In this document: piece by piece, positions 20,778 to 45,281 of the stretch
Position numbering within the stretch: position 1 is the stretch's first letter
How the letters are laid out: the number at the start of each line of letters is the position of its first letter
Position numbers and translations under genes: made by a program
Source: Halomonas sp.
GTDB taxonomy: Bacteria; Pseudomonadota; Gammaproteobacteria; Pseudomonadales; Halomonadaceae
NCBI RefSeq assembly: GCF_011050415.1
Contig: NZ_DRFS01000001.1
Span: 1 to 45,281 of the forward strand
Direction of reading: 5' to 3'
Length of the DNA stretch: 45,281 bases
Notes under the pieces: generated by a model
Database searches by the model: none
Told to the model about the DNA's origin: nothing
The model's input: the letters and a program-made list of their open reading frames with translations, nothing else

Positions 20778-22442
20778 GTGGACACTACTGTGAAATCGAA
20801 AAAGCTAGAAAACATTTCATTACGTTACTTAAGCCTTGCTGCCCTACTGCTCATTGCCGTAAGTATTTTTATTTTTGCTACGCTTACCTGGCACATTATG
20901 CAACAGAGCAATAGCGACTTATCTTCTCTAGAGCAGATTAACGTTCAACAGGGTTCCTCACTTAACCGTTTGCATATAGCTAGCCTAGAGGGTCTTAACC
21001 GAATGGATCGGGCGTTAGAACGCCAGCTACGTCCATCGCTTGGCGACCCAGTGGAAGCTCTGCAAGATGTAGAGCATGAATTGGCTGAAATGACTTCCTC
21101 TTTGGCAACATTTTTACAAGCCACAATAGAAAGTCCTTACCAAGCATTGCGCACTTCAATTGAACAGGAAGCAACCCTGCTACTGATTTCAATGGGCGAG
21201 CAATTGAATGCGATTACAACGGGCGATCGAGCAGGGTATCGTCAGATTACATTAGAAGCCCTAACACATAGCATGGCATTAGCAATTCACGCTCGCGCGT
21301 TTAATCAAGTTGCCGATCAACAAGGTATCGACCTAATGCAGTCTGCCCAACAGCGTTCGCAAAGCGTTGCTACTTGGCTAATTGGTGGTGTGAGTTTATC
21401 TGTAGGTCTGCTAGGCCTGCTAATGTTGTTGGGTCATTATCAAATACTATTACCTATCAACCATTTAATAGCACATTTTCGCACTATGGCGAGCGGAGAT
21501 CTTACCGCCGAGGTTCCCAAGCGGGGTAAGAATGAGATTGGTCAGCTTTACGAAGCGCTCAACACTATGCAGCGTTCTTTTACAAGCACTGTCAAACAAC
21601 TTCATACTAACAGTCATTATATTTTCGCAAGTGCGCAACGCCTTGCTTTGGGAAATGAAGATCTTGCTACTCGCACCCATCAGCAAAATGTATCACTGGA
21701 TACCACTTCAACTAATTTGCATATACTTACGGACAGTGTTGCGGATACGGCAAACCATGCTATCGAAGCTCAGAGGTTAACTGAAACAGCTGTAGAGCAG
21801 GCCACGCAAGGCCATCAAACTATGGAAGAATTCTTATTGACGATGCAAGAGATTCGCATACGCTCGCAGCAAGTGAACGATATTATGGATGTTATCAACG
21901 CTATTTCCTTTCAAACCAATCTACTTGCACTTAATGCCTCGGTAGAAGCGGCAAGGGCTGGTGAGCAAGGCAGAGGGTTTGCCGTAGTGGCAGAAGAAGT
22001 ACGCTCGTTGGCAACACGAAGCTCAGATGCAGCCGCTCAAATCCAATCGATACTAGTAACGTCCAACAATAGCATTGAGCAAGGGAATAAGCTTTCGCTG
22101 AACGCCAGCAGAAACATTCAAGAAGCGGTATTATCAATTGAGACAATCAATAAATCGATTGCAAAGATTGCAGTTTCAGCAAGTCAGCAGCACCAAAATA
22201 TTGAGCAAATCAGTGGCACTCTACAAGAACAAACACAGGTAACTCAGGCAAACGCACGTCAAGTAGAAGCAACATCACAAGATGCCATTTCACTGGAAGC
22301 AGCTGCCGAGAGTATGCGTGAGCAAGCGGCCCAATTTAAAGTTGATACTGCTCTGCATGTCGAGCCTTACGAATGGTCAGCGACTAATCAAGAAATACTG
22401 CCAACAGCTAATCAATATCAAGAACCAGCTTCGCTAGCATAG
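20778..22442 (+). CDS. Methyl-accepting chemotaxis protein
   Basis: A 554-residue chemoreceptor: membrane segment at about residues 15-39, a helical periplasmic ligand domain (about 40-195), a second membrane segment (about 196-218), HAMP (219-272) and a long cytoplasmic coiled coil. The kinase-control hairpin [20 protein letters not shown] starts near residue 377. There is no C-terminal NWETF-like pentapeptide for CheR/CheB tethering. The start is a GTG at 20778, or possibly the GTG at 20790; neither has a strong ribosome site. The ligand is unknown. It stands alone, with no che genes beside it. Confidence 0.9.
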
Positions 22443-22593: not shown

Positions 22594-23118
22594 TTAGTGG
22601 TTCGTAGCAGCGTCTTGCGACTCAAGCATCTCAACCAGTGGCTGAAATTGCTCGCGGTTGTGCTCGTTCATGTGCATCAAAATGCGATGGGCTTCAAGGA
22701 TGCGTTCACGCAGTCCCTCTTCATCGGCGGGCTCTTCTGGCAACTCTTCAAGTACATCATTGAGCGCGGTCTGCTGCTGCAAAGGCGCTTCCATCAGCGT
22801 GAAAAAACGCGCAAACCCCATCACATCCAGCATTTGACGGACGTCAGGGTTATCAACAATGATTGTGGGTGGCTGCTCCAAGCGGCCTTTAACCGCCATG
22901 GCCACCTTAGCGAGGAAGCCCAATGCGGTGGAGTCCACGTTGGTGGCCTCGCGCAGGTCAATCAATACGGCACACAACCCCGGCGTCTCGGCGAGGCGTT
23001 GGGCTTGAGTGTCTAGCGTAGCGCAGAGCGTTAAACGCACATCGCCACACAGTTTTAAAACAAATACACCAGAATCGAACGCCGCTTTAATGCGGCCTTC
23101 TTCAATCAGTATGACCAA
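22594..23118 (-). CDS. STAS-domain anti-sigma factor antagonist
   Basis: A 174-residue protein whose first 115 residues form a STAS domain. The likely regulatory phosphoserine is S63 in NVDSTALGF. A C-terminal helical, acidic tail of about 60 residues follows (EELPEEPADEEGLRERI). In partner-switching systems such proteins bind an anti-sigma factor when dephosphorylated by a SpoIIE/RsbU-type phosphatase; the gene upstream encodes exactly such a phosphatase and overlaps it by 17 bp. The start is TTG at 23118, with an AGCGGA-like ribosome site inside the upstream gene. From memory, Pseudomonas carries a similar vacJ, phosphatase and STAS neighbourhood. Confidence 0.85.
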   Translation of the reverse strand: MVILIEEGRIKAAFDSGVFVLKLCGDVRLTLCATLDTQAQRLAETPGLCAVLIDLREATNVDSTALGFLAKVAMAVKGRLEQPPTIIVDNPDVRQMLDVMGFARFFTLMEAPLQQQTALNDVLEELPEEPADEEGLRERILEAHRILMHMNEHNREQFQPLVEMLESQDAATNH

Positions 23119-24295
23119 ATCCGCTCACCATCATGATTGTTAGATCATCGGGTAAAGCATCGCGCTCTTGATTCGCATCAAACTCCGCATCCCCTTCTGC
23201 AAGGAGCGAATTTGTCTGTGCGAGCCGGTCGCGCAACTGCTCAAGCGTTACACTCTCACTTACCAATTGCTCAAGCTCCTTGAGCCGCGTGTCGAGCGTT
23301 TTACCCGGCAAGCACTCCAATACACCGTCTGAACAGAGCCATAAACGAAACTCTTTCGGCAAAGTACAGCTTAGCGAAGGATACTCCACATCGGGGAAAA
23401 GGCCTACCGGCATTCCCTCACCTTCCAAGCGACTTAGCTTACCCTCTGCCGCCAAAAGCGGCATAGGAAGCTGAGCGCCGAGCGAATAGTGCAGAGTATG
23501 CGCCTCATGGTCAATAACACCGACAAATAAAGTGGCATGCTTACCTATATCGGTGCCCTGTAATTCACGATTCATTGCCTTCAGCCAATCCGGGGGCAGG
23601 TTCTCCGGTTGCTTACCATCCCACTCACTTAACCAGCGGTTGCATAAGTATTTGAGCAGTACCGTCACAAAGGCTGATGAGGCGCCATGTCCAGATACAT
23701 CCGCGAAGTAAAATGCGCTGTAACGCTCGTTATAGCGCTGATAGTCTAGAAAATCGCCGGATAAATAGAGCGAAGGAGCAAATAGATAATCGTAGTACAC
23801 CCCATTAATCACCTTAGGATGTACCGGCAGTAAGCGACGTTGAATATGCCCCCCGCTCTGCTGATCCATACGCAGCAGCGCCAAGTGTGTCTCAAGGCTC
23901 TCATTTAATTCAGCCAGCCGGGCATGATCACGCTCGCGCTCAAGGGCCAAATCATTAAGCTCAATGGCCTTGCGGATCATTCGTCGCAGTAGCTCGGCAT
24001 GACGCAAAGGATGAACGATGTAGTCCACCAAACCAACATCGATGGCCTTAATTAGATCAGCGTCCTGTCGCGAGTCACTAACCACCAGCGTCGGCAGCCG
24101 ATGCGTTAACTGCGACCACTGCTGCCGTGGCACTGCCCTGGCATGGGCAACAATAAGTGCCGTGCCTGAGGGCAAATGCTCAATATCATCAGCCGCATAT
24201 ACCCACATACCATCGCAGGTAATTGCTTCCGCCAGCGCATCACGTTCACGACCAGGTTCATCGATCACCGCGATCAACTGCTTAGAATGATCCAT
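23102..24295 (-). CDS. SpoIIE/RsbU-type PP2C phosphatase with degenerate receiver domain
   Basis: A 397-residue protein: receiver-like domain (residues 5-110), a helical linker (110-150) and a PP2C/SpoIIE phosphatase domain (155-395) with metal-binding aspartates in SGDFLDY (D181), ADVSGHG (D199) and LPDDLTIMM. The receiver keeps the acidic pair (D12, E13), but the phosphoacceptor position is A52 (IVAHARAVP) and the conserved lysine is H95 (VHPLR), so classical phosphorylation looks impossible. It probably dephosphorylates the STAS protein encoded downstream. The ATG at 24295 has GAGG 6 nt upstream; vacJ ends 8 bp before it. Confidence 0.85.
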   Translation of the reverse strand: MDHSKQLIAVIDEPGRERDALAEAITCDGMWVYAADDIEHLPSGTALIVAHARAVPRQQWSQLTHRLPTLVVSDSRQDADLIKAIDVGLVDYIVHPLRHAELLRRMIRKAIELNDLALERERDHARLAELNESLETHLALLRMDQQSGGHIQRRLLPVHPKVINGVYYDYLFAPSLYLSGDFLDYQRYNERYSAFYFADVSGHGASSAFVTVLLKYLCNRWLSEWDGKQPENLPPDWLKAMNRELQGTDIGKHATLFVGVIDHEAHTLHYSLGAQLPMPLLAAEGKLSRLEGEGMPVGLFPDVEYPSLSCTLPKEFRLWLCSDGVLECLPGKTLDTRLKELEQLVSESVTLEQLRDRLAQTNSLLAEGDAEFDANQERDALPDDLTIMMVSGFGHTD

Positions 24296-24303
24296 CACAA
24301 GCC

Positions 24304-25113
24304 TCAATCGGCGAAATCATCGTCACCAAAGTCGCTATCATCGAAATCGCTATCATCAAAATCAAAGACGTCAGCGGCAAACGGATCGTCGCCCAGCTCT
24401 CCATCACTAATCGCAAATTGGCGACTTTGTAAGAAGGCGTCCCGAATAAAGCGGTAGCGATCACCGCGGATTAACTCCTCCTGGTCTAGCAAGCCCGCGC
24501 GGATATCGACCAAGTTAAGCGCTGTCAGGCTGATACGAACCGTATCATCATCCACGTAATAGATGGGATTCGCGGCTAGATCAGCAGGTAAACCGGTCGT
24601 GTCTCGCAGCGTACTGGGGCCTAACAAAGGCAACACTAAATAGCGCGAGTCCTCCCACCCCCAAACGGCTAATGTTTGACCAAAATCCTCTTCTTCCGCG
24701 GTAATTTCCATCAAGGTGGCATAATCCAGCAGCCCCCCAATGCCGACGGTGGAGTTAATCAAAAACCGGGAAGTGGCAAGGCCTGCGTTGGCAGGCTTGC
24801 CTTGCAGCATACTATTGATCGCCGTGCGCACTTCACCTAAGTTGGAGAAGAAATTACCCACGCCTATTTGTACGGGCTCAGGGGTAATCGTGCGGTAGCC
24901 TCTAGCAACTGGTTTTAATGTGTAACGATCTAATACATCGTTAAACGCAAACACTTTACGGTTAAAGCCTTCCCAAGGATCCTCGGGATGCCTGTCTTCC
25001 GCGACCTGGGTGCTGGCGCAGCCGCCGGTTGCTAATAACGCCACCAGCAGGAGAGGCAAGCCCCCGGTGCGCCACGTAAGCGCTGACTTCTCGTTATTTA
25101 ACAACTGCCGCAT
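24304..25113 (-). CDS. mlaA: MlaA/VacJ family outer-membrane lipoprotein
   Basis: A 269-residue lipoprotein of the Mla phospholipid transport system, which removes mislocalised phospholipids from the outer leaflet of the outer membrane. The signal peptide ends in a lipobox-like LLATGGC (lipidated C32). The body carries the family hallmarks DPWEGFNRKVFAFND and FSNLGEVRTAINSMLQGK, and the central VWGWEDSRYLVLPLLGPSTLRD. The last 20 residues are very acidic, built from repeats of DFDDS and DFGDD (encoded by 15-bp repeats near 24310-24365), an unusual tail. It follows the KAS III-like gene by 32 bp and precedes the phosphatase gene. Confidence 0.93.
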   Translation of the reverse strand: MRQLLNNEKSALTWRTGGLPLLLVALLATGGCASTQVAEDRHPEDPWEGFNRKVFAFNDVLDRYTLKPVARGYRTITPEPVQIGVGNFFSNLGEVRTAINSMLQGKPANAGLATSRFLINSTVGIGGLLDYATLMEITAEEEDFGQTLAVWGWEDSRYLVLPLLGPSTLRDTTGLPADLAANPIYYVDDDTVRISLTALNLVDIRAGLLDQEELIRGDRYRFIRDAFLQSRQFAISDGELGDDPFAADVFDFDDSDFDDSDFGDDDFAD

Positions 25114-33793: not shown

Positions 33794-35905
33794 ATGAAAG
33801 CACAGCCAAGCATGCATTTAGGCTTACCCGCTGCGCGCTATTATCGCGCTAATGACCCAAAATGGCACTGGTTAGAAGAGCGTGATGATCCAGAAGTAAC
33901 CGCATTTTTAGAAGCAGCCAATCAACAGCAGGCAGAATGGTTTGCCCCACTTGAGAAGCTTGAAGAAACACTTTACCAAAGCCACTTGGCACGCCGCGAA
34001 CTCGCGGTGACCAGCCTTAAGACAACGCTTGACCAATTCACGTTCTGGAGTGAGACCGCAGCCGAAGATGATTACGCCTGCTGGTGGCGCCATCCCAATG
34101 ACCAACCTGAACAGCAGGAATGCTTTTTTGATGTTAATGCCCGGGCCTTCGAGCATGACTTTTACGACATGGGTGATATGGCGCTCTCTCCTGATGAGCA
34201 GTGGCTAGCCTGGACCGAAGATACCCAGGGCGACGAGCGATTCACTCTATGGCTGAAAGCGCTGCCTAACGGGGCGCCGTTTCAACTGTTGAGTGATATC
34301 GGCGCAGGCTTATGCTGGGCAGAAGATCAGACGGCCACCACGGCTACCCTGCTGTTCACACGCTTTGATGATACCCAGCGGCCCGATAGCGTATGGCGTC
34401 TACCGCTTACATTGAACGACCCCACCGCTTTAATCTCACCCGCGCTGGTTCTACGCGAAGAAGATCCAGAGTTTTGGCTCGGCATTGGTAAAACACGCTC
34501 TCGCTCATGGTTACTGCTCGAAAGCGGCTCAAAAGATACCAGTGAGATTCACCTGCTACCCGCCCACTCTCCTGGCGAAGCCCCGCAATGCATTCAGACA
34601 CGCAAAGAGGGGGTTGAGTACACTATTGACCACCGCCCGGGAAGTTTTTATCGTCTGCACAACCAAGCAGGCGCTCACTTTCAACTAGATTTCCTGCCGG
34701 AAGGTGAGCTTGCGCAGCGCCATCGCAATTGGCAAACGTTAATCGCTCACCGGGAAGAAGCAACGCTTGAGGGTGTTGATGCTTTCTCTTGGGGGCTGAT
34801 GCTGGGTGAGCGAGATCATGCCCAAGCACAGGTGCGTTTGCGACGATTACGATTAGATGAGCAGCATGCCTTTACGCTGGACGAGTACCTAGCACTGCCC
34901 GAACAACCCTGCTCGCAAATGCTTGAAGATGCCCCGCACTTTGATAGCCAGATCCTTCGCCTACGCGAAGAGTCATTTACCCAGCCGCCCAGCTGGTTTT
35001 CGATCGATCTTACCAATGGCCATCGTACGCTGCTCAAGCGTGCGCCAGTTTACGGCAATCTTCAGCCAGAACAGTTGATAAGTCGACGCCTATGGGCAAC
35101 CAGCCAAGATGGCGAGCAGGTGCCGGTATCGGTGGTGATGCGCGCCGACCTGGCAAGCCACCCCTTGCCCACCCTGCTATATGGCTATGGCGCTTATGGC
35201 GAAGCTCTTGATCCGTGGTTTTCTATCGCCCGTTTAGAACTACTGGAACGCGGTGCGGCGTTTGCCGTCGCCCATGTTCGCGGTGGCGGCGAACGTGGCG
35301 AGCCTTGGTATTTAAATGGCAAGATGGCCCATAAGGAAAATAGCTTTAATGATTTTCTGGCCGCGCGGGAAGCACTGGTCGAACAAGGGGTCAGCGAGGC
35401 GCAGCGTATCGTTGCCTATGGCGCTAGTGCTGGTGGCCTGCTGGTGGGCACCTGCATTAATCGTGCGCCTGAGGCGTTTTGCGCAGCCCTGCTAGACGTG
35501 CCTTTTTTAGATGTGCTGCGCACCATGCAGAACCCCGAGCTACCGCTTACTACCGCTGAGTACAGCGAGTGGGGCAATCCGGAGATGCCAGAGGTAGCAG
35601 AGCGGATTGGTAGTTATTCGCCTATCGATAACATCAAGCCACAAGCTTACCCTGCCCTTTGGATTGAAGGCAGTTGGTTTGATACCCGAGTAAGCTATTG
35701 GGAACCTGCCAAATTTTATGCTCTGGTGTCACAGCAGCAGCAAGGGTTAGCGCCGATAATGATGCGTACCGATATGAGCAGCGGGCACGGCGGCGCATCC
35801 GGCCGTTTCAAAGCCTGGCGGGACACCGCACGGCAAGATGCGTTTATTCTTTGGGCATTAGGACTAGATGCTCAAATGCTGCCAACCTCTGCTTCTACGC
35901 CCTGA
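33794..35905 (+). CDS. S9 family oligopeptidase (prolyl oligopeptidase/oligopeptidase B-like)
   Basis: A serine oligopeptidase of about 703 residues: N-terminal beta-propeller (about 60-400) and C-terminal alpha/beta-hydrolase. The catalytic serine is in AYGASAGGLLVG (about S544), the aspartate in SWFDTRVSYW (about D630) and the histidine in SSGHGGASGR (about H665). The first propeller blade motif MALSPDEQWLAWTEDTQGDE and the GGGERGEPWYLNGK segment resemble oligopeptidase B and PtrB relatives, which cleave short peptides after basic residues or proline. The start is uncertain: ATG at 33794 or a TTG 30 bp upstream, both without a clear ribosome site. Its 3' end overlaps the heme oxygenase gene by 34 bp. 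Confidence 0.9.
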   Translation: MKAQPSMHLGLPAARYYRANDPKWHWLEERDDPEVTAFLEAANQQQAEWFAPLEKLEETLYQSHLARRELAVTSLKTTLDQFTFWSETAAEDDYACWWRHPNDQPEQQECFFDVNARAFEHDFYDMGDMALSPDEQWLAWTEDTQGDERFTLWLKALPNGAPFQLLSDIGAGLCWAEDQTATTATLLFTRFDDTQRPDSVWRLPLTLNDPTALISPALVLREEDPEFWLGIGKTRSRSWLLLESGSKDTSEIHLLPAHSPGEAPQCIQTRKEGVEYTIDHRPGSFYRLHNQAGAHFQLDFLPEGELAQRHRNWQTLIAHREEATLEGVDAFSWGLMLGERDHAQAQVRLRRLRLDEQHAFTLDEYLALPEQPCSQMLEDAPHFDSQILRLREESFTQPPSWFSIDLTNGHRTLLKRAPVYGNLQPEQLISRRLWATSQDGEQVPVSVVMRADLASHPLPTLLYGYGAYGEALDPWFSIARLELLERGAAFAVAHVRGGGERGEPWYLNGKMAHKENSFNDFLAAREALVEQGVSEAQRIVAYGASAGGLLVGTCINRAPEAFCAALLDVPFLDVLRTMQNPELPLTTAEYSEWGNPEMPEVAERIGSYSPIDNIKPQAYPALWIEGSWFDTRVSYWEPAKFYALVSQQQQGLAPIMMRTDMSSGHGGASGRFKAWRDTARQDAFILWALGLDAQMLPTSASTP

Positions 35906-36441
35906 ATAAAGTACTCAAAGGCCTGCTGAGCACTCACCCGCAAAGCAGGCCAGCTAGGCGGCGGGCAATAGTGCTCAGCGCAACGCCAAAAAGCCGCCCA
36001 CTGCTCAGCTTGTAAGGGCTGAGCAGTAAAAAAACGTAGCGGTGCCTGGCTACCCAGCACGCTATGAATATGTCTCGCAATCATAGCGCCACCCAAACGC
36101 GAGCCTTCAAGCACGTACAGCTTGCCGACTACCTCCGCCACATTGGCAGAGGGAGGAATACGGTAAGCAGGTTCAGCCTGGCCACCTAATTGCTCAATAT
36201 CCGCTTTTAATAACGCTGCACGCTCCACTAAAACATAATCAACGTTATTGGCGGGTAAGCTGCTGTTGAGCGCCATTTCCAGGCTTGCGATAGGTGCATA
36301 AAGCGCGCTTAAAGCCGTTGCATACTCTTCCAGGCTTACGTCACGCTTTAGCAGTGGTTTCAATAAGGGATGCTGATCCACTCGGTGATGATCTGCTCGC
36401 GTTTCACGCTTTAACCATTCACTCAGCGTGAGCTTACTCAT
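35872..36441 (-). CDS. bphO: Biliverdin-producing heme oxygenase (BphO)
   Basis: A 189-residue helical heme oxygenase that opens heme to biliverdin IXalpha, iron and CO. The proximal heme histidine is H18 in TRADHHRVD, and the distal-helix glycine region is YVLEGSRLGGAMIARHI. It starts ATGAGTAA, overlapping the last 8 bp of the phytochrome gene, so the chromophore enzyme is translationally coupled to its apoprotein. Its own 3' end overlaps the convergent S9 peptidase gene by 34 bp. Confidence 0.93.
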   Translation of the reverse strand: MSKLTLSEWLKRETRADHHRVDQHPLLKPLLKRDVSLEEYATALSALYAPIASLEMALNSSLPANNVDYVLVERAALLKADIEQLGGQAEPAYRIPPSANVAEVVGKLYVLEGSRLGGAMIARHIHSVLGSQAPLRFFTAQPLQAEQWAAFWRCAEHYCPPPSWPALRVSAQQAFEYFIQGVEAEVGSI

Positions 36442-37921
36442 CCGCTTTCCAGGTAAACGTCTGCGCCTGTTGAAGAATAGCTCGCAGCTTCAATAGGTAC
36501 ATCCGGGTGCTAGCTGCCCAAGGTCGGCTGTAACCAACCCGTTGTTCTACCCAAGCTTCGAAAGATCGACGAGGTGCAATCGCACTATTGCCATCCCGAT
36601 AGTCCACCGGCTTATCGGGATTACCCCCCCAGGTAACCTCATAGAGATGCTCTAGGCGGCATAAGTAAAGATTAACCGCATGGTGGTGATCGAGAGGTAA
36701 ATCGCTTACCACTGCAACGCCAGCAATTTCGCTTAGCGGCAGATTAATGCAGTCTCTTCGTAAACAGTCGCTTATCCATACCGATGACGTTTCAGACCGT
36801 GCTACTTCTGCCACCACTTCAACTCCACGAGCTGATAGCACTTCTCCGGCGTAATAATAGTCGCTACCCACTTGCAAAACGACACCATCGGCGGCGAATG
36901 TCTCTATCAACCAATGGCTTAGTTCAGGCCACGCGCTTTCTAACTCACCGTGGCGCATCAGCACGGATTTAGCTTGATCGAAATGGCGCTGCATGCCATC
37001 AAGCACCTGTAAACGGCGGCGCGCCTTGAAGTCACGCAAGCGTAAATTGAATGCTTCTGAAAGCGCGCTCATCGCCTGTAATTGGCTGACCGTTAACTGA
37101 CGAGCAACGGCACTATGACAGGAAATAAGCGCATCCAACTCGCCTGCCTGAGTAATAGGTAAAGAAATAGCCGCCCTCACCCCCATATTGGCCATATATT
37201 CCAGATGAATAGGCGATACACTGCGTAAATCTACCCAAGAGAGGTTGGGAATAGATGATTGTGCGTGTCCTACAATGGACACCGGTTCAGTAAGGGCATC
37301 AGGGATTGAACGCCACGGATTTTTTAAATAGAGTTGGCGCGCCACTTGAGGAATGTCGCTGGCTGGAAAGCGCAAGCCTAGATAGCTACCTTCCACACCA
37401 GGCACACGGGCGTCGGCACTAACTTCACCGTCACCTTCAGGCATAAATCGGTAGTAGAGCACTCTATCAAAACCGCTTAACTCTAAAAGCGAATCCACCA
37501 ATTGCTGACACTGCTCTTCTAGCGCCTGCTGACTGTCTGGCACAGAAATAGCCTCACCCAGAATTGGCATCGGATCTGCATGCACTTCAACAGGATAGAG
37601 TTCAAATACGAGCTGCTGACCATTATGGGATACGACAACATCAAACTCTTGCTGTTTAGTATTGCACTGCCCCACATGCCGCTCGCCCTCATTAAGCGCT
37701 GGCGCGTTTGCATACACTTCTTGGATAAAGGCGGGTAACGGCTGATCCAATAGATGTTCAATTTGGATATGCTCATCAAGCCACTCCACAATGTTCATCG
37801 AAACATGGCTTACCAGGCCTTGTAAATTGGTCACGATAAGCACGCCGTGGGGCTGAATAGCGCCAGAAAGATGTAACTGCTCTTGTTCACACTGATCAAT
37901 AAAGCCGTTCTGTGTCGCCAT
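36434..37921 (-). CDS. bphP: Bacteriophytochrome photosensory module without an output domain
   Basis: A 495-residue red/far-red photoreceptor. The PAS domain has the biliverdin-attachment cysteine C11, 12 residues before IQPHG. The GAF domain has FPASDIPQ and RSVSPIHLEYM (the conserved Asp and His at the chromophore). The PHY domain has the PRRSFEAW tongue motif near residue 470. The protein ends in the helical spine after PHY; there is no histidine kinase, GGDEF or other output. It must signal through another protein, most simply the CheB-CheR-GGDEF-EAL protein whose stop codon is 1 nt before this ATG. The ribosome site AAAGGA lies inside that gene. Natural single-module phytochrome rather than truncation is suggested by the tight bphO coupling. 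Confidence 0.92.
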   Translation of the reverse strand: MATQNGFIDQCEQEQLHLSGAIQPHGVLIVTNLQGLVSHVSMNIVEWLDEHIQIEHLLDQPLPAFIQEVYANAPALNEGERHVGQCNTKQQEFDVVVSHNGQQLVFELYPVEVHADPMPILGEAISVPDSQQALEEQCQQLVDSLLELSGFDRVLYYRFMPEGDGEVSADARVPGVEGSYLGLRFPASDIPQVARQLYLKNPWRSIPDALTEPVSIVGHAQSSIPNLSWVDLRSVSPIHLEYMANMGVRAAISLPITQAGELDALISCHSAVARQLTVSQLQAMSALSEAFNLRLRDFKARRRLQVLDGMQRHFDQAKSVLMRHGELESAWPELSHWLIETFAADGVVLQVGSDYYYAGEVLSARGVEVVAEVARSETSSVWISDCLRRDCINLPLSEIAGVAVVSDLPLDHHHAVNLYLCRLEHLYEVTWGGNPDKPVDYRDGNSAIAPRRSFEAWVEQRVGYSRPWAASTRMYLLKLRAILQQAQTFTWKADE

Positions 37922-37922
37922 G

Positions 37923-40900
37923 TCAGGAATTCCTTTCCATGCCATTGTTAGCCGCATCCAAGGCTACTAGGGCTGTAAATTCTGGAAGTGGTAGCGGCTT
38001 GGATAATAAGTAGCCTTGTACGTAATCACAGCCGTTAGCGGTTAACCAACTCAACTGAGACTGTGTTTCTACTCCCTCAGCGACGGTGCGAATATTAAGC
38101 GCTTTCGCCATGCCTAAGATAGCCAGTGCAATGGCTTGGTCGCTTTCATCTGAACTACCCAGCCCATCCACAAAACTCTTGTCTATTTTGAGTTCCGCCA
38201 ACGGTAAGCGCTTTAAGTAGGCCAGGGATGAGTAACCGGTGCCGAAATCATCAACCGCTAACTTAATGCCCGCCTCCCTTAGTTTTTCGATATTGCCTAA
38301 TGCAGCGCTTGAGCGATCCACCAAGGTACTCTCGGTAATTTCAACTTGTATTAGTTCATGAGGAACACGGTACTGTTTTAAACAGGCAAATAGGTGCGAA
38401 ATAAAACGCTCTTCCTGAAAACTACGCGCAGAAACGTTCATTGCTACCGGGGGGGGACGAGCCCCCTCAACCAACCAATTGGCTAATTGATGAACCAATA
38501 GCAGTGCCACATGACGATCTAGTTCTAGAATCAAACCGGTTGCTTCCGCAACAGGGATAAAATCGACCGGACTTACCGCTCCCAAAACAGGGTCATTCAA
38601 ACGTAGCAGCGCTTCTGCACCCACTAAACGATTAGGTTCAGCACTGGTAAATTTCGGTTGGTATACCAGTGTTAGCCGCCCTTGCTCCATTCCTTCACGC
38701 AGGGCATGCTCAATGGCGACATCACGCATTAAGCGCTCCTGAAGTTCAGGCTTAAACAGCTCAAAACGATCGCGGCCATTCTCTTTAGCACGATACATCG
38801 CAGTATCGGCGGCTTTCGTCAGGCCTGCTACATCTTCACCGTCAACCGGGCAAAAAGCCAACCCAATACTGGATGTCACAAATAGCGAGTGGCGGCGAAT
38901 TTCAAACGGTTTTGAAAGCGCTTCGACGATACGTTTAGCAACTTGCTCAGCCCCTTCAATCGTTGTATCGGTCACAATAATGGTGAACTCGTCCCCTCCC
39001 AGTCGTGCAACGGTGTCCATCTCACGCACTAATTCACGCAACCGACCAGCCACCTGAACCAGCAGTTCATCTCCCACATCGTGACCCAAGGTGTCGTTAA
39101 TGCTTTTAAAGTTATCTAAATCCAAAAACATCAGTGCGCTAATTTGGTTATTGCGCCTCGCATGAGCAATGGCGACCTGCAAGCGGTCTTGGAATAACGT
39201 GCGATTAGGTAAGCCCGTGAGGGCATCATGAGTGGCGAGGTACTCAGCATGCTGCTGAGACTCTTTTATATGGGTAATATCTGAGAATACTGCTACGTAC
39301 AGCATCTCCTCATGGCTATCTGGCTCAATGCAGTTCAGGGTCAACCACTGAGAAAAGAGCGTTCCATCGCGGCGCCTATTCCAAACTTCTCCTTGCCAAA
39401 AACCATTCTGCTGCACAAGCTCCCAAAGCACTTGGCAGGTATCCGATTGCTCTGCATCCTGACCATTTTCATGCTCACTGTAGAGCAATGGGATCGCAGG
39501 TGTCCCTAACACTTCCTGAGTAGCGAAACCCGTAATACGCGTAAATGCCGCATTTACTGACTGCACATCACCTAAAGCATTGATGACAACAATAGCCTCT
39601 CCAGCCTGCTCATACACCTTGGCGGCCACCTGCATTTCCCGCTCACCCTGTTTGCGTGCGGTGATGTCCTCGGCTTCAGTCAGAATTAAGTTGGGGTGCC
39701 CTTGTTCATCGCGCAGCACTTGATGAACGACAGCAAAAATACGCATCCCGCCTTCCGGTGTCGAAAGCACATGCTCTGCCTTCACAATACGCTGATAGCG
39801 AAGTGCCTCAAGGTCACATGCCCACACGGAACTTGCGTAAGGCTCGGGAAATAACTCAAAGGGATTATGTCCTACTAGCTCGTCTTGAGTGAGGCCGAAC
39901 GTATTCAAAAACTGAGGGTTAGCGAAGGTATAGTGGCCATTAATATCCTTAAGTGCCATCATAACGGTGCTGTTTTCCATCAGCGCATATAGCTGCGCTT
40001 GAGATTGGCGTAACTTAGCCTGCGCATGGCTGAGGTCAGTGATATCCATCAGCGTCAGTATTAGCAACTCAACATTGCCCTCACGGCTGACCCCGGGGGT
40101 CAATGTGCACTGTAACAACCGGCCTTCGGCTTCAACCACTCCCTCTTCTGGCATGCCATGGGCCATTACGCTGGTTAGTTGTGCTTCGAGATCATTTAAT
40201 GCCTTAGGTAACCTCAATCCAGCCACATGGCGCTGAAGCGCGGTAGGCCGAAAATTAAAATAGCGCGCTGCGGGAGCGTTATAGCGTTTTAAGCAGTGGT
40301 CGGTGTCAAATACCAGTAGTGGGAAATCAAGCGCATCATAGAGATAGGTATACTCTTCATTCAGCTTGGTGAGTTGACTAGTTTTTACATTTAGCTCTTC
40401 GTTAAGGCTAATCAGCTCTTCATTGGTGGCTTGAAGTTCTTCGTTAGCCGCTTCCATCTCTTCATTGGTGGCTTGTAGCTCTTCATTAGAAGCCTGAGCC
40501 TCTTCGTTAAGCGACTGCATCTCCTCATTCGCCGTACCTAATTCTTCGATCAGCGCCTGAAGATGCTCACGAGTAGCCACCAGCTCATCTTCAAGGCTAT
40601 TACCTTTATCAAGCGGCAATGGCTCCATCAAACGCTCTAGCGCCAAATCCGTCGAGAATAATTGTTCGATAATAGGCTCAGGCGTCAGGATCACCAAAAG
40701 ACGACGATCGTCATCGCTTTCGGAAAGGGCACGAACACTAAGCCGCCACCAGCGATCCTCAAAGCGACGCCGGCGCCCCGTTTGAGGCTCACGCTTTTTG
40801 TGAAACTGATGCAGCATTGCCATCAGCTCACCGCGAAAGACATTGCTGATAACATCGCTGATGCCTACTTGGGTGCGACCAGCAGGAAAGTGTAAAAACT

Positions 40901-42479
40901 TTGCCACTTCTCCGGCCGTATGCAACACACTGCCCTGGGTGTCACACAGGGCAACCGTTGCTTCGATATGGGACACCAATGCATCTAACAACTGCTGCAT
41001 GTCGCGATCGCGGCGACGCAAAGGCTGGTTTACAGCACTGGTTTGCGGCGTTTTCGATATTAACTCACGACTTTCTCCCTGCTTCCGAAAAAGGCGCTCA
41101 CGACGATTCAAAGGGGTGAACAGGCTTTCCGTTTGAGCAATACTTTCTGAACGGCCTAAAAAAAGTACGCCACTCGCTCTTAAGCCAAAGTGAAAACGTT
41201 GCAGTACACGGGCCTGCAACTCATTATCAAAATAGATCAGAACATTACGGCAGGTAACCAAGTTCAGACGCAAAAAAGGCGGGTCATCAACCAAATTATG
41301 CTTAGCGAAAACGATCATATCGCGTAGCTCTTTATTCACTTCATAGGTATGTTCAGTCGCTGTAAAGTAGCGCTCTACCCACTCAGGTGGCAATGCCTCC
41401 AAAGCCGCCCCTATGTAACGCCCCCTGCGGGCAATATCCAAAGCATCTTCATCAATATCGGTGGCAAAAATTTGCACTACCTGACTCACCACACAATGAC
41501 GCTGTTTTGCCTCAGCAATCATTAGTGCAATTGAATAAGCCTCTTCTCCAGTTGCACAGCCTGCAACCCATACCCGAATAGGTTCACGCCCCGCTTCCTG
41601 GACGAGACGATTAATCGCGCCATCTAAAGCGTCAAATGCAGATCTATCACGTACAAATGCCGTGACAGAAATTAGAATATCTCGTCCCAACTGCTCCAAT
41701 TCAGTTGGGTTTGTTTCTACGAAATGCAGATATTGCTGCATGTCAGCCATATTAGTCGCAATCAGTCGGCGGCGAATTCGTCGGCCAAGGGTGCCTTTTT
41801 TATAACCAGAAAAATCTAACTTTCGATGCTCTTTTAATAACGCCAGTAAGCGCTCGGGTACGGCCGCGGCAGCATCATGCAGGCTTGCCCGCTCTAGTAC
41901 GGCAAGTTCACCTAAACGCGCTGCCATTGACTCAACGTTCAGCACATAATCAATCACGCCCGCATCAATAGCTGATTGAGGCATACCACTGTATTTAGCA
42001 TTGTCGGGCGCCTGTACCATGGTGACACCACCGGCCGCCTGGATGGCCCTAAGCCCTGCCGTTCCATCAGACCCGGTGCCTGAAAGCACAATACCGACCG
42101 CTGCCTCATGAGCATCTGACGCCAGTGAGATAAAAAAATCGTTTATGGAGGGTTTAGGCCCAACATGAGGCTGGATAGGGGTGGTGTAAAAAACACCCTC
42201 TCTAATCAAAGCATTCATATTGGCGGGTACAACATAAATCACCCCTGACTCGGGGATTTGATGATCTTCAAAACGTTGAACGCGTAGTTGTGTCTCACGA
42301 CTCAAAATATCGACCAACATACTTTTATGTGCAGGAGATACATGCTGTAACACGACATAGGCCAATGGAAAGGAGGGATCCAATGGTCTAATTAATTTAG
42401 TAATGGCTTCTAACCCGCCAGCAGAGGCTCCGATACCCACTACAAGGGGTAGGGACGAATGTGAAGTGGCAGCAGCCAT
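37923..42479 (-). CDS. CheB-CheR-PAS-GGDEF-EAL multidomain regulator
   Basis: A 1518-residue fusion. CheB methylesterase covers residues 10-190 with the triad S19 (GASAGG), H46 (LQHVSP) and D138 (GTGSDGT). CheR methyltransferase covers about 205-480 with the SAM-binding VWVAGCATGEEAYSIA near 305. A PAS-like segment follows, then a coiled coil (about 630-706) of repeated EELQATNEE-type heptads. There are three PAS domains (about 706-1060), an intact diguanylate cyclase motif RLGGDEF (about 1160) and an EAL phosphodiesterase (motif GAEALLRL about 1288, and DDFGTGYSSL). No transmembrane segment is seen. AAAGGAT precedes the ATG. It is first in an operon with bphP and bphO. CheB/CheR-PAS fusions are known; one ending in GGDEF-EAL and coupled to a kinase-less phytochrome is notable. 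Confidence 0.93.
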   Translation of the reverse strand: MAAATSHSSLPLVVGIGASAGGLEAITKLIRPLDPSFPLAYVVLQHVSPAHKSMLVDILSRETQLRVQRFEDHQIPESGVIYVVPANMNALIREGVFYTTPIQPHVGPKPSINDFFISLASDAHEAAVGIVLSGTGSDGTAGLRAIQAAGGVTMVQAPDNAKYSGMPQSAIDAGVIDYVLNVESMAARLGELAVLERASLHDAAAAVPERLLALLKEHRKLDFSGYKKGTLGRRIRRRLIATNMADMQQYLHFVETNPTELEQLGRDILISVTAFVRDRSAFDALDGAINRLVQEAGREPIRVWVAGCATGEEAYSIALMIAEAKQRHCVVSQVVQIFATDIDEDALDIARRGRYIGAALEALPPEWVERYFTATEHTYEVNKELRDMIVFAKHNLVDDPPFLRLNLVTCRNVLIYFDNELQARVLQRFHFGLRASGVLFLGRSESIAQTESLFTPLNRRERLFRKQGESRELISKTPQTSAVNQPLRRRDRDMQQLLDALVSHIEATVALCDTQGSVLHTAGEVAKFLHFPAGRTQVGISDVISNVFRGELMAMLHQFHKKREPQTGRRRRFEDRWWRLSVRALSESDDDRRLLVILTPEPIIEQLFSTDLALERLMEPLPLDKGNSLEDELVATREHLQALIEELGTANEEMQSLNEEAQASNEELQATNEEMEAANEELQATNEELISLNEELNVKTSQLTKLNEEYTYLYDALDFPLLVFDTDHCLKRYNAPAARYFNFRPTALQRHVAGLRLPKALNDLEAQLTSVMAHGMPEEGVVEAEGRLLQCTLTPGVSREGNVELLILTLMDITDLSHAQAKLRQSQAQLYALMENSTVMMALKDINGHYTFANPQFLNTFGLTQDELVGHNPFELFPEPYASSVWACDLEALRYQRIVKAEHVLSTPEGGMRIFAVVHQVLRDEQGHPNLILTEAEDITARKQGEREMQVAAKVYEQAGEAIVVINALGDVQSVNAAFTRITGFATQEVLGTPAIPLLYSEHENGQDAEQSDTCQVLWELVQQNGFWQGEVWNRRRDGTLFSQWLTLNCIEPDSHEEMLYVAVFSDITHIKESQQHAEYLATHDALTGLPNRTLFQDRLQVAIAHARRNNQISALMFLDLDNFKSINDTLGHDVGDELLVQVAGRLRELVREMDTVARLGGDEFTIIVTDTTIEGAEQVAKRIVEALSKPFEIRRHSLFVTSSIGLAFCPVDGEDVAGLTKAADTAMYRAKENGRDRFELFKPELQERLMRDVAIEHALREGMEQGRLTLVYQPKFTSAEPNRLVGAEALLRLNDPVLGAVSPVDFIPVAEATGLILELDRHVALLLVHQLANWLVEGARPPPVAMNVSARSFQEERFISHLFACLKQYRVPHELIQVEITESTLVDRSSAALGNIEKLREAGIKLAVDDFGTGYSSLAYLKRLPLAELKIDKSFVDGLGSSDESDQAIALAILGMAKALNIRTVAEGVETQSQLSWLTANGCDYVQGYLLSKPLPLPEFTALVALDAANNGMERNS

Positions 42480-42965
42480 GAAGATCCTTTACTAAGTAGT
42501 AACATTTTCGGTTAGTGTACACACCTTACAGCCTAAAGCGACATTCAGTACAGAAAATTGCGTGCAAATAACTGTTTTTAAAATGTTTTATACAATTAAA
42601 TTAGATAATTTTAAATATTATTAATAATTAATATATTTCTACAGTTAACTTATTACGGCAACCCTTCCTTTCAGAGCATTCTATCTAAGCACATTTTTCT
42701 GCCTCAGAGGATTCAATTCAGCACAAAGGTTGTACACCCCCACAAAAAGTACAATATCTGAAAAGTAAATTAGTACTTTATAATGAAAAAAAGAGCAAAA
42801 TAGCGATGTTAATAAAACTCATTTTATTGATTATCGTACTGATTTTTTCTTAATTCATAGCAGTAAACAGCGTTGACAGCATGCGCTAGTTAAAGCTTGG
42901 TGCCTAAGGGTACCTTATACGCCTATAGGTAAGCGCAACCACTCACGGATAAGTGACTCACTACG
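42480..42965. other. AT-rich divergent intergenic region of the light-sensing locus
   Basis: A 486-bp gap between the divergent CheB-CheR-GGDEF-EAL and LOV-protein genes. The part 42560-42660 is very AT-rich with TTAA/AATT runs, as in H-NS-type silenced regions. A TATAAT hexamer is at 42779-42784, next to an inverted repeat AAAGTAC/GTACTTT (42746-42779). TTGACA is near 42875 and TAAGG-GTA-CCTTA near 42906. It also holds a 15-codon frame (MLIKLILLIIVLIFS, 42806-42853). No larger gene is visible. Confidence 0.6.
42806..42853 (+). CDS. Possible 15-residue hydrophobic peptide
   Basis: ATG to TAA encoding MLIKLILLIIVLIFS, a single very hydrophobic segment, preceded by a purine-rich AAAAAAAGAG about 11 nt upstream. 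It lies in the AT-rich divergent gap. Such a frame may arise by chance in AT-rich DNA, and nothing else supports it. Confidence 0.15.
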   Translation: MLIKLILLIIVLIFS

Positions 42966-45164
42966 ATGGATGTCAATAATCGCGAACTGGCGCTTCAATC
43001 GGGTTTACTCATGCTACTCGTCACGACGACTGTGATTGGAGCTGGTGGGTTTCTATTGGGTTTTAGGGACAGTTTGCATCAACCAAAATCGCTCTCTCTA
43101 CTGCCGGATAGCGCATTAGTCATTATGCTATGTGGATTGGGTCTCAGCGCGGTAATGGCCAATCTGACGGGTTGTCGTAGAGCAACCTCTCTCGCATTAG
43201 CAGCCGTCGCCACCTATACGCTTTTACATAATAGCGTTGGCAGTGAGCCACATGGCCTGTCATTAATGACAGGCCATCCACGCTTACCCACTCAGACGGC
43301 ACCTATTTTAATAATGGCTGCATTTTGCCTATGGGCAGGACCAAGTGGACGCTGGTCACGGTATTTTTGGCGATCAGGGGGGCTGTTTTTATGGGTGATC
43401 GGATGCATTACGTTAATGGGCCATTATGGCTGGTCCCTGCCATCGTGGTTACCTCGCGCTAGTGCACTAATTCCAGGATTGCTGTGCTTTCTCTTTGGTG
43501 CTGCCATGATAATGGTTAGCCGGCATATTCCTCATTTAAAAACATCGTTAAGCAGTCCCGCCGTGTTTGCGTGTATTCTGGGTGTTAGCTTAAGTATCAG
43601 TAGTTGGTTTTTAGTCAGCTGGAATCAGCACCAGGAAACGCGTCATAGTGCTCAGCAGAGCCTGGAAGGAGTGGCGGCTAGTATTGAGCAAGCGCTTGCT
43701 TCACGGGCAGTTGTATTAGAGCGTTTATCAGGGCGATGGAGCCAAGTATTTAATGATGCTCAGTCACGCAGCCGAGAAGTTGAGCAATATTGGACAGACT
43801 ACCCCAGTATTTTAGCGATTGCCTACTTTAACCCACTTGCCGATGATATATGGCGTCGCGCTCGCCATGGCAGCGCCCTACGTTGGTTAGATGAACAGTT
43901 ATTAACCCCAGCGACCTTGATGTGGCTAAATCAGCAACGGACAAGTACCCAGTGGTCGATTCCGGATCACGAGCATCCATCGCGTGCTTTACTCTCTCTT
44001 CAGCAGCCAAACCAGCCCTATCAGCTCGTCGTAGCGATTGATATTGGGTTACTTATTGAGCAAGAAACTAGCATCATTAATGAAACCTATACGCTGCATG
44101 TAACCCACTTTAATGGCTATCTTGTTAATAACGGAGATGGTCTGTTACCCGCCCATTCTCCAACGCCACCTACGGACTCACTAGCGAAATACACAACCGT
44201 GTTACCTAGCGGAACAGTACTAAACTTTCATTTTACCGAGCGACCCAACTCTCCTGCGCGATTAGCTGACTTTATTGCCGCAGGCGTAGGCCTTTCCGGG
44301 CTGCTGCTTACCTATCAGTTGGTTTTCAGCTTGGCGCTGATATCAGCTCGCGCCAGACGCTCTCAAGAACTTGCCCAAGCCAAAGAGACCCTTCAAAACA
44401 GCGAGCAACGCTTTCGTTCACTCTTTACCCAAAATCCCGATGCGGTGTTTTCCCTAGACCTTCAGGGATACCACTTAAGTGTCAATCAATCTGTACTCAG
44501 CCTGCTAGAAATTAATGAATCGCAAATTATTGGCAGCCACTGGCACGATATTGTCGCTTCTGAAAACCATCCCGTCGTTGCCGCAGCCTTTCAACAAGCA
44601 TTAAAAGGCCTTGCTCAGCGATTTGACTTGGAAGTGTTCAGCCAACAGGGTCAGGCTCGACAACTGGATGTTTCTTTTTTACCCACCATCGTGATGGAAC
44701 AAGTGGTAGGCGTTTACGGTATCGCTAAGGATATGACGACACTGCGTCAACGGGAGTCGCAGCTGCGTCTTTATCAACGCAGCATTGAAGCCAGCAGCAA
44801 TGGCATTTTGATTTGCGAAGCACTGCCACCTGACTACCCCGTTCTGTATGTCAACCCTGCTTTCGTGGCCATAACGGGCTACGAGCTTAACGAAGTAAAG
44901 GGGTTTAGCTGCCGTTTTTTACAAGGCCAAGACACCGATCCTCAACAAGTGACCGACATCCAGCGAGCACTGGAGCAGCAACGCGATATCACCTTAACTA
45001 TTCGCAACTACCGTAAAAACGGTCAGCCATTTTGGAATAACTTGTTTCTCTCGCCTGTGCGTGCCCCTAATGGCGTAGTAACGCATTTTGTTGGAAGTAT
45101 TAATGATATTTCTGAACGACGAGACCACGAAAACGCTCTAGCCCGGATTTCTCACAGGGTATAA
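42966..45164 (+). pseudogene. Membrane PAS-LOV blue-light sensor, cut by an insertion sequence
   Basis: A 732-residue readable product. About seven membrane segments (residues 10-215) are followed by a CHASE-like extracytoplasmic domain (about 218-425), another membrane segment (430-455), a PAS domain (about 475-590) and a LOV domain (about 600-720). LOV hallmarks: YVNPAFVAITGY, the adduct-forming cysteine C649 in SCRFLQGQDTD (Asn to Ser just before Cys), NYRKNGQPFWN and the C-terminal GSINDISERR. The frame breaks at ALARISH, where relatives continue with an (H)D-LTGLPNR diguanylate cyclase start; the last native base is about 45155 and the rest comes from the insertion sequence. The output domain is therefore lost, or lies beyond the element outside the window. 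Confidence 0.85.
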
Positions 45165-45281
45165 AAGAAAGCGGCTGAAAGTGCTATGATTTCAAGAACC
45201 TAACCAATCCATCAAGCACCAACAGCCGCTTCCAAAATGGTACCTGAAAAGCTGACCTTCTCGCCACTCTCACGCCGCCAA
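45156..45281 (+). mobile_element. Left end of an insertion sequence (IS1380-like, partial)
   Basis: From about 45156 the sequence (AGGGTATAAAAGAAAGCGGC onward) no longer fits the sensor gene and has the layout of an IS left end. An imperfect inverted repeat (45169-45185 with 45215-45231) precedes a short leader, and an ATG follows. The upstream TCAC (45152-45155) could be a target duplication. The right end is outside the window, so the boundary and family are tentative. Confidence 0.6.
45237..45281 (+). CDS. Transposase N-terminus (partial, runs off the window)
   Basis: The first 15 codons, MVPEKLTFSPLSRRQ, run to the window edge. A start of this style (short leader, then L-S-R-R before an expected FDGG-type motif) resembles IS1380-family transposases, but 15 residues are too few for certainty. 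It follows the IS left end at about 45156. Confidence 0.45.
   Translation, partial: MVPEKLTFSPLSRRQ

Follow-up and report, generated by a model that had tools for sequence, protein, structure and literature searches.

A standalone phytochrome gene of Halomonas and its conserved neighbor, a CheB-CheR fusion gene with a candidate methyl-accepting coil

Three kinds of protein that come close to the system described here are already known, namely phytochrome-fused cyclases (such as Rhodobacter BphG1), CheB/CheR fusions and Gln-deficient LOV receptors. In addition, the bacteriophytochrome RpBphP1 has its own output part and a separate target, PpsR2, on which it acts; PpsR is a DNA-binding repressor. 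Here, we analyzed a 45,281-nucleotide (nt) stretch of DNA from Halomonas sp. (RefSeq assembly GCF_011050415.1, contig NZ_DRFS01000001.1, positions 1 to 45,281), hereafter called the window, which makes up the entire contig C1 of a 4.7 Mb genome in 34 contigs. On its minus strand lies an operon that encodes, in order of transcription, a CheB-CheR fusion protein of 1518 amino acids (aa), a phytochrome of 495 aa and a heme oxygenase of 189 aa. What appears to be new, judged from gene content and gene order, is the conservation of this split unit, a standalone phytochrome plus a CheB-CheR fusion, in two phyla. Our preferred reading, to which we give about an even chance, is that the phytochrome acts in trans on the fusion, and that the CheR and CheB domains of the fusion reversibly methylate a coil of glutamate pairs in cis, tuning the cyclic di-GMP (c-di-GMP) response set by light.

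The genes of the operon are tightly packed. The fusion gene (37923..42479, minus strand, as are all features of the operon given below) ends 1 nt before the phytochrome gene (36434..37921) when the phytochrome start is taken at 37921 (a longer frame is possible from 37957), and the phytochrome gene overlaps by 8 nt with bphO (35872..36441), which encodes the heme oxygenase (Pfam PF01126, E 9e-11) and is the predicted source of the biliverdin chromophore. The coordinates of the open reading frames (ORFs) and the Pfam assignments bear out the original prediction for this DNA, which had described a tight operon of a kinase-less phytochrome, its heme oxygenase and a CheB-CheR-PAS-GGDEF-EAL protein. 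In the phytochrome, Pfam identifies PAS_2, GAF and PHY domains, with neither a kinase nor a C-terminal output module, and both Pfam and the AlphaFold model (mean predicted local distance difference test score, pLDDT, of 84.6) have the chain stop directly past the PHY domain, with a short final helix (residues 472-487). In other words, the protein is a standalone photosensory module, and the best Foldseek matches of the model are phytochrome photosensory modules as well. C11, D189, H239 and the tongue residues P450, R451, S453 and F454 are invariant across 26 phytochrome sequences; we take these to be the chromophore and tongue residues, with Cys11 (37889-37891) as the predicted biliverdin cysteine, D189 as the Asp of the PASDIP motif, H239 as the GAF His and the last four as the PRxSF motif. 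This output-less phytochrome is predicted to be of the red/far-red type.

The fusion carries, by Pfam, CheB, CheR_N, CheR, PAS_10, two more PAS, GGDEF and EAL domains, and a motif check found the active-site motifs of both CheB and CheR intact within this single chain. The CheB methylesterase domain (41913..42440) has S19, H46 and D138 in place (GASAGG, QH, SGTGSDG). It has no receiver domain, so that the usual control by CheA is not possible; a partner in trans could replace this absent phospho-control. The CheR methyltransferase (41106..41855) consists of CheR_N and an S-adenosylmethionine (SAM)-binding domain, and is followed by a predicted PAS-like fold (residues 486-600, 40680..41024), a call that is a reading of the AlphaFold secondary structure in a region where Pfam assigns no domain. 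Between this fold and PAS_10 lies the coil, which consists of seven tandem Glu-pair heptads (residues 651-699, 40383..40529) and is enclosed in a predicted 88-residue helix (residues 629-716, 40332-40595; pLDDT about 83-91 at residues 641-710). Further on, the GGDEF diguanylate cyclase domain (38766..39236) has an intact GGDEF motif and RxxD inhibitory site, and the EAL phosphodiesterase domain (37995..38705) has intact EAL and DDFGTG motifs; going by these motifs, the output would be c-di-GMP synthesis and breakdown. The AlphaFold model of residues 1-830 has a predicted template modeling score (pTM) of 0.37, which makes its domain placement unusable, and predicted structure was therefore dropped as proof of a contact between CheR and the coil.

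Neither the window nor any of the 37 paired loci compared in detail has the photosensor and the enzyme in one gene, and the two genes of each pair are co-directional. More generally, a CheB-CheR fusion adjoins every complete standalone phytochrome with readable surroundings, in Pseudomonadota as well as in Bacteroidota. In a survey of the family, 53 of 201 genomes match phytochrome, mostly as longer proteins; 12 have the standalone type, and the fusion lies beside it in all 12 (G047 being a split gene). Among 50 phytochrome-match loci (L040, L042 and L043 being read as L092, L094 and L095), 25 are standalone and all 25 are adjoined by a fusion: six in Vreelandella, Halomonas and Marinobacter (L044 in broken frames), and 19 in the Bacteroidota genera Rufibacter, Pontibacter, Pedobacter and Sphingobacterium. 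The other 25 comprise one locus cut by a contig end (L089) and 24 without a fusion within the DNA examined. An even draw of 398 Pseudomonadota genomes gave 87 PHY rows, 77 of them frames of at least 600 aa and 10 shorter. None of the 77 long frames has CheB within 10 kb among the CheB matches listed (at least 150), a basis on which a neighbor could be missed. Five of the 10 shorter rows have a fusion at 6 kb or less, namely those of the window's own genome, G529 C10 (with GGDEF-EAL in a frame of its own), G792, G888 and the split G047, so that complete standalone genes are paired in four out of four cases (own genome included), plus one split gene. Of the remaining five, one lies on a contig that starts mid-gene (G529 C6), one is a broken gene accompanied by a GGDEF frame (G010), and three are weak partial matches within GGDEF proteins. 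An even draw of 296 Bacteroidota genomes gave 34 PHY rows: all three standalone phytochromes are paired (seed genome included), one row is a fragment with stops, and none of the 30 long frames has CheB within 10 kb among the CheB matches listed. Five more short frames from the family survey and the Pseudomonadota draw (L198-L202) were read as a check, and a CheB-CheR neighbor is absent from all five loci; L198 is PAS-GAF only and L200 PAS only (neither with PHY), L199 is a broken PAS-GAF-PHY-GGDEF, L202 is a GGDEF protein, and nothing matched L201. We also sought a single-chain fusion of phytochrome and CheB-CheR as direct evidence of contact and saw none among the surveyed frames, the longest PHY frames being 1230 aa (family genomes), 1199 aa (Pseudomonadota draw) and 978 aa (Bacteroidota draw).

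Two side observations concern the surveyed genomes. G000 has a second phytochrome-like protein on contig C21 (L141:7605-9620; PAS_2-GAF-PHY-GGDEF, 671 aa), whose gene is separated by about 13 kb from a distinct CheB gene of ordinary length (381-aa frame), and this 13-kb spacing of a PHY gene and a CheB gene is repeated in G033, G047 and G010. G529 has two CheB-CheR loci (L134, L174), neither with GGDEF-EAL in the same frame (a separate frame in L134, an 808-aa frame in L174), which may reflect either a genuine split or an error of sequencing.

The gene-order check that the original prediction had proposed was thus run, and the genes stay together across genera and two phyla, which favors the action in trans that had been suggested there for the sensor and the enzyme. 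Within this conserved adjacency, the fusion comes first in the Proteobacterial loci and the phytochrome first in the Bacteroidota. Alternatively, the neighbors could be functionally unrelated and their co-location simply inherited synteny, considering that within Vreelandella the flank is conserved too (a prolyl oligopeptidase-like gene). However, the flanks vary in G014, G024, Marinobacter, G792/G888 and the Bacteroidota while the pair persists, the gene order is reversed in Bacteroidota, and the pairing did not arise only once. We built a CheB-CheR tree of 47 rows (21 of the 37 paired and 26 unpaired fusions, with L098, L149 and L154 as long branches), in which unpaired fusions separate the paired ones of the two phyla and a single paired clade is rejected (approximately unbiased (AU) test, p 0.00012); the pairing therefore arose at least two times on this tree. 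We disfavor the synteny explanation and consider it very improbable. For the 26 unpaired fusions on the tree, no PHY match was found within 10 kb, and no common sensor gene was seen among their neighbors in a comparison of sizes and gaps only.

The pair is found with two forms of output. Of three Bacteroidota fusions with Pfam assignments, L054 and L065 end in HisKA-HATPase and L050 in HATPase; for L098, L100 and the window fusion, Pfam shows GGDEF-EAL at the end, and the other Proteobacterial fusions, where not cut, have GGDEF-EAL ends by our own profiles. The part common to the fusions of both phyla is CheB-CheR-coil-PAS_10. The mechanism that we propose starts from this adjacent, co-directional pair with either GGDEF-EAL or histidine kinase outputs. 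Because only the CheB-CheR-coil-PAS part is common to both output forms, the phytochrome would contact this part rather than the catalytic output, and its docking would shift the coil-PAS assembly.

What the CheR and CheB domains modify is a separate question. An option that the original prediction had raised with a "perhaps" was methylation of receptors. In such a version, the fusion would methylate and demethylate chemoreceptors and light would bias chemotaxis. The CheB and CheR motifs are intact, and one Marinobacter and four Vreelandella/Halomonas genomes have 24-32 matches each (fragments included) to methyl-accepting chemotaxis proteins (MCPs). In contrast, MCP signaling domains are missing from all 15 pair-bearing Pedobacter/Sphingobacterium genomes and from G257 and G485 (two further Bacteroidota pairs from the even draw), and number one each in four pair-bearing Rufibacter/Pontibacter genomes; CheW is missing from the same 17 genomes and has two matches each in the four others. 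In total, 17 of the 21 pair-bearing Bacteroidota genomes searched have neither an MCP nor a CheW match, while their fusions keep the CheB and CheR motifs, so that the enzymes, if they work, must have a substrate other than MCPs in these genomes; by homology, the same may hold for the window fusion. The pair does not fit the classical adaptation layout, in which a receiver-bearing CheB acts on MCPs bound to CheA and CheW: the CheB domain of the window lacks a receiver, and MCP and CheW matches are missing from these 17 genomes. The receptor option was therefore not borne out, and the MCP and CheW searches led us to set MCP methylation aside as the main function; we regard it as unlikely. Among the few Bacteroidota MCPs, the only one of a Rufibacter genome (L191:995-6406) is 1804 aa long and contains 13-14 consecutive HAMP stretches, and the Pontibacter MCP in L190 has 1508 aa.

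A candidate substrate lies within the fusion itself, after CheR and the predicted PAS-like fold. The coil reads NEEMQSL NEEAQAS NEELQAT NEEMEAA NEELQAT NEELISL NEELNVK, and it follows the heptad rule x-[EQ][EQ]-x-x-[AST]-[AST] of MCP-type methyl-accepting helices, with small residues at both of the last two places in four heptads, at the sixth only in two and at neither in NEELNVK. The same heptad occurs in MCPs of related genomes as TEQQAAS-LQETAAS-MEQLTAT and variants, which we take to be the MCP methylation helix, with 2-3 in tandem in 15 of the 23 frames read. Five to seven heptads are present in 36 of the 37 paired fusions. Over 32 proteins from both phyla, the Asn is conserved at 100% and the second Glu at 97-100% at all seven positions (for heptad 658-664 the figures are from 24 rows, the other 8 of 32 being gapped), and mean conservation is 0.87 for the coil against 0.68 for CheB and 0.65 for CheR. 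With frame classes set by motif, runs of at least three heptads (loose rule) occur in 48/51 CheB-CheR, 14/30 MCP, 1/5 other CheR and 3/2366 other frames. Of the last three, L044 is a CheB-CheR fragment, L173 an MCP and L154 a coil-PAS_10 protein encoded next to a fusion. According to our preferred reading, this coil would be the methyl-accepting substrate: CheR and CheB would set its methylation and hence its charge, as in chemoreceptors, the gain of the output would follow, and the protein could adapt to steady light without chemoreceptors.

Action in trans may also proceed without methylation, with the CheB and CheR domains serving as a docking platform or acting on another target, and the coil being a structural signaling helix between PAS domains. 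This would explain the adjacency data equally well, and the coil joins the predicted PAS-like fold to PAS_10, as signaling helices do. One locus in particular speaks for it: L098:5451-9458 (G014) retains CheR, GGDEF, EAL and the phytochrome operon, but its CheB has Arg for Asp and no GASAGG context, and the heptads have disappeared. On the other hand, the CheB triad is kept in 36/37 and the CheR SAM motif in 37/37 paired proteins, which is unlikely for mere platforms, and conservation is higher for the Asn and Glu in the heptads than for the enzymes. We consider an operation without methylation possible, if somewhat doubtful. Alternatively, the CheR and CheB domains could modify the phytochrome itself and thus make it a methyl-accepting sensor, since the sensor and the modifying enzymes also come as a pair in genomes without MCP matches; but the phytochrome merely ends in the short predicted helix given above, no phytochrome is found among the frames with tandem heptads, and the same motifs are kept in fusions without a nearby phytochrome. 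We judge this version to be improbable.

Returning to methylation of the coil in cis, we compared the losses of the CheB triad and the coil. A triad residue is lost in 6/64 fusions (Asp in L098; Ser and His in L146, L147, L148 and L150; His in L149), and three heptads or fewer are left in 5 of these 6, against 1 of the 58 with an intact triad. This co-loss is suggestive, and phylogenetic proof of it was given up because there are too few events. L146, L147, L148 and L150 form a Bacteroidota clade of fusions of about 1080 aa, in which CheB Ser and His are lost, the CheR motifs are kept and the coil is shortened; their genomes are without MCP matches.

Several observations weigh against our preferred reading. 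By the tree, there are three independent triad losses, two of them with a shortened coil, which is below significance, and both L149, with 8 heptads in spite of its lost His, and L151, with only 3 heptads beside an intact triad, run opposite to the trend. The operon of L098 is kept without the CheB Asp and the heptads, so that the pairing at this locus does not depend on reversible methylation. The coil is also present in CheB-CheR fusions without a phytochrome; it is therefore not specific to light, and may be structural only. The Marinobacter MCPs (L178, L184, L185, L189) have at most one such heptad, and the two Bacteroidota MCPs that were read have no such tandem heptads. The phytochrome tree (56 rows) places the two standalone groups apart but does not reject one common clade (AU p 0.185), so that the sensor half may have a single inherited origin. 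The neighbors that could be missed in the Pseudomonadota draw belong to these points as well. Finally, one study (PMC8546571) reports that CheR by itself was not automethylated, and that it methylated PhoP at Arg112 instead of at the Glu pairs of PhoP.

With these points in mind, we put forward a broader proposal more tentatively, at somewhat less than an even chance: CheB-CheR fusions would be self-contained adapting hubs that reversibly methylate a chemoreceptor-like Glu-pair array in cis and need no chemoreceptor, and standalone phytochromes would have been recruited at least two times as plug-in sensors, with c-di-GMP or histidine kinase outputs depending on the phylum. Output-less phytochromes would thereby gain a partner. 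CheB/CheR fusions, which are widespread and little explained, occur even where no chemoreceptor was found, and methylation of a coil within the same protein now offers a testable idea for them. If true, bacterial light sensing would make use of a chemotaxis-like memory device in organisms without chemotaxis, in an unusual, self-adjusting conversion of light to an internal signal, and the two-protein layout would lend itself directly to split optogenetics, with a single red-light sensor plugged into different outputs.

Beside the operon, on the other side of an AT-rich intergenic region (42480..42965) where a scan for shared regulatory signals gave promoter-like matches at chance level and only weak inverted repeats, lies the 5' part of a membrane-PAS-LOV-GGDEF-EAL gene (42966..45141, plus strand; Pfam and comparison with relatives). 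The left end of an insertion sequence follows at the contig edge (about 45142..45281) and extends the LOV ORF by 7 foreign residues. This end occurs at 6 places in the genome including the window, all of them contig ends, where the assembly breaks. The lost GGDEF-EAL half is a 445-aa frame at the start of contig C4, with 83% identity to a relative, and the two edges (window and C4) share the sequence CTAG. What the original prediction had described as a divergent membrane PAS-LOV protein is therefore a truncated gene, with its GGDEF-EAL half on C4 behind an insertion sequence. The continuous protein is found in L090 (1165 aa), L091 (1157 aa), L041 (1163 aa) and L099 (1325 aa), while L096 and L097 have LOV-GGDEF-EAL proteins of 816 and 798 aa without the membrane part; in L044 the gene is in broken frames, and in L094 it is cut by the stretch read. 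No LOV gene lies beside the operon in G108, G014, G024 and Marinobacter.

Alignment of the LOV domain (about 44799-45116, plus strand) to solved LOV domains shows that the adduct Cys (CRFLQ) and the flavin-pocket Asn residues are present, and that the active-site Gln is replaced by Ile in the window and by Ile or Leu in the six relatives compared (L091, L094, L096, L097, L099, L044), a Gln-deficient LOV family of Vreelandella. Just before the adduct Cys, the window copy reads GFSC and the relatives compared RNC. Considering that the insertion sequence cuts the gene, the blue-light branch is interrupted in this strain, and as the gene is also absent beside the operon in several relatives, it is a common neighbor and not part of the core. 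The idea of a dual-color locus is thus supported only in part, and the LOV protein was rejected as a fixed partner. Elsewhere in the window, a SpoIIE-type phosphatase with an N-terminal extension and a STAS protein are encoded by overlapping genes (22594-24307) and possibly form a partner-switch pair, near an MCP gene (20778-22442).

In the openly licensed literature, among the titles and abstract openings listed, nothing was found on a pair of standalone phytochrome and CheB-CheR or on self-methylation of such a fusion, which is a weak negative. Phytochrome-fused cyclases (Idiomarina, PDB 5llw) likewise combine a red-light PAS-GAF-PHY sensor with c-di-GMP enzymes, and both the phytochrome and the fusion have 5llw among their solved relatives. 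There, unlike here, sensor and enzyme form one chain; the genes of the window, as in all paired loci compared, encode an output-less sensor and a separate CheB-CheR fusion. The action of RpBphP1 on PpsR2 resembles the one proposed here in that a bacteriophytochrome works on a separate partner, and differs by the sensor's own output and by the nature of PpsR. PpsR structures are weak among the Foldseek matches of fusion residues 1-830, along with many PAS proteins. CheB/CheR fusions with PAS and a GGDEF-EAL or kinase output have the same domain order as the window fusion. They are numerous (at least 7991 of the 7999 database proteins scored match the CheB-CheR part, among the matches listed) and some are named "two-component system CheB/CheR fusion protein" by their sources, but pairing with a standalone phytochrome is confined to a subset; PMC2890560 reports a CheB-CheR hybrid in Rhodospirillum centenum. 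Wsp-type c-di-GMP control and chemosensory cluster 2 of Halomonas (PMC5907407) likewise couple chemotaxis-type proteins to a cyclase; they do so with a chemoreceptor, CheA and CheW, whereas the fusion unites modification domains and output in a single chain. Ppr of Rhodocista centenaria (PMC2993699) also ties a phytochrome-type photosensor to chemotaxis signaling, but is a single fusion of photoactive yellow protein, bilin-binding and further domains, and its listing entry makes no mention of a CheB-CheR partner. Gln-deficient LOV receptors (PMC9098866) have Ile or Leu at the Gln site and a photo-active Cys and are able to signal, with a cyclase as showcase; in the window, the corresponding protein is a membrane-PAS-LOV-GGDEF-EAL protein beside a red-light operon, with its gene interrupted.

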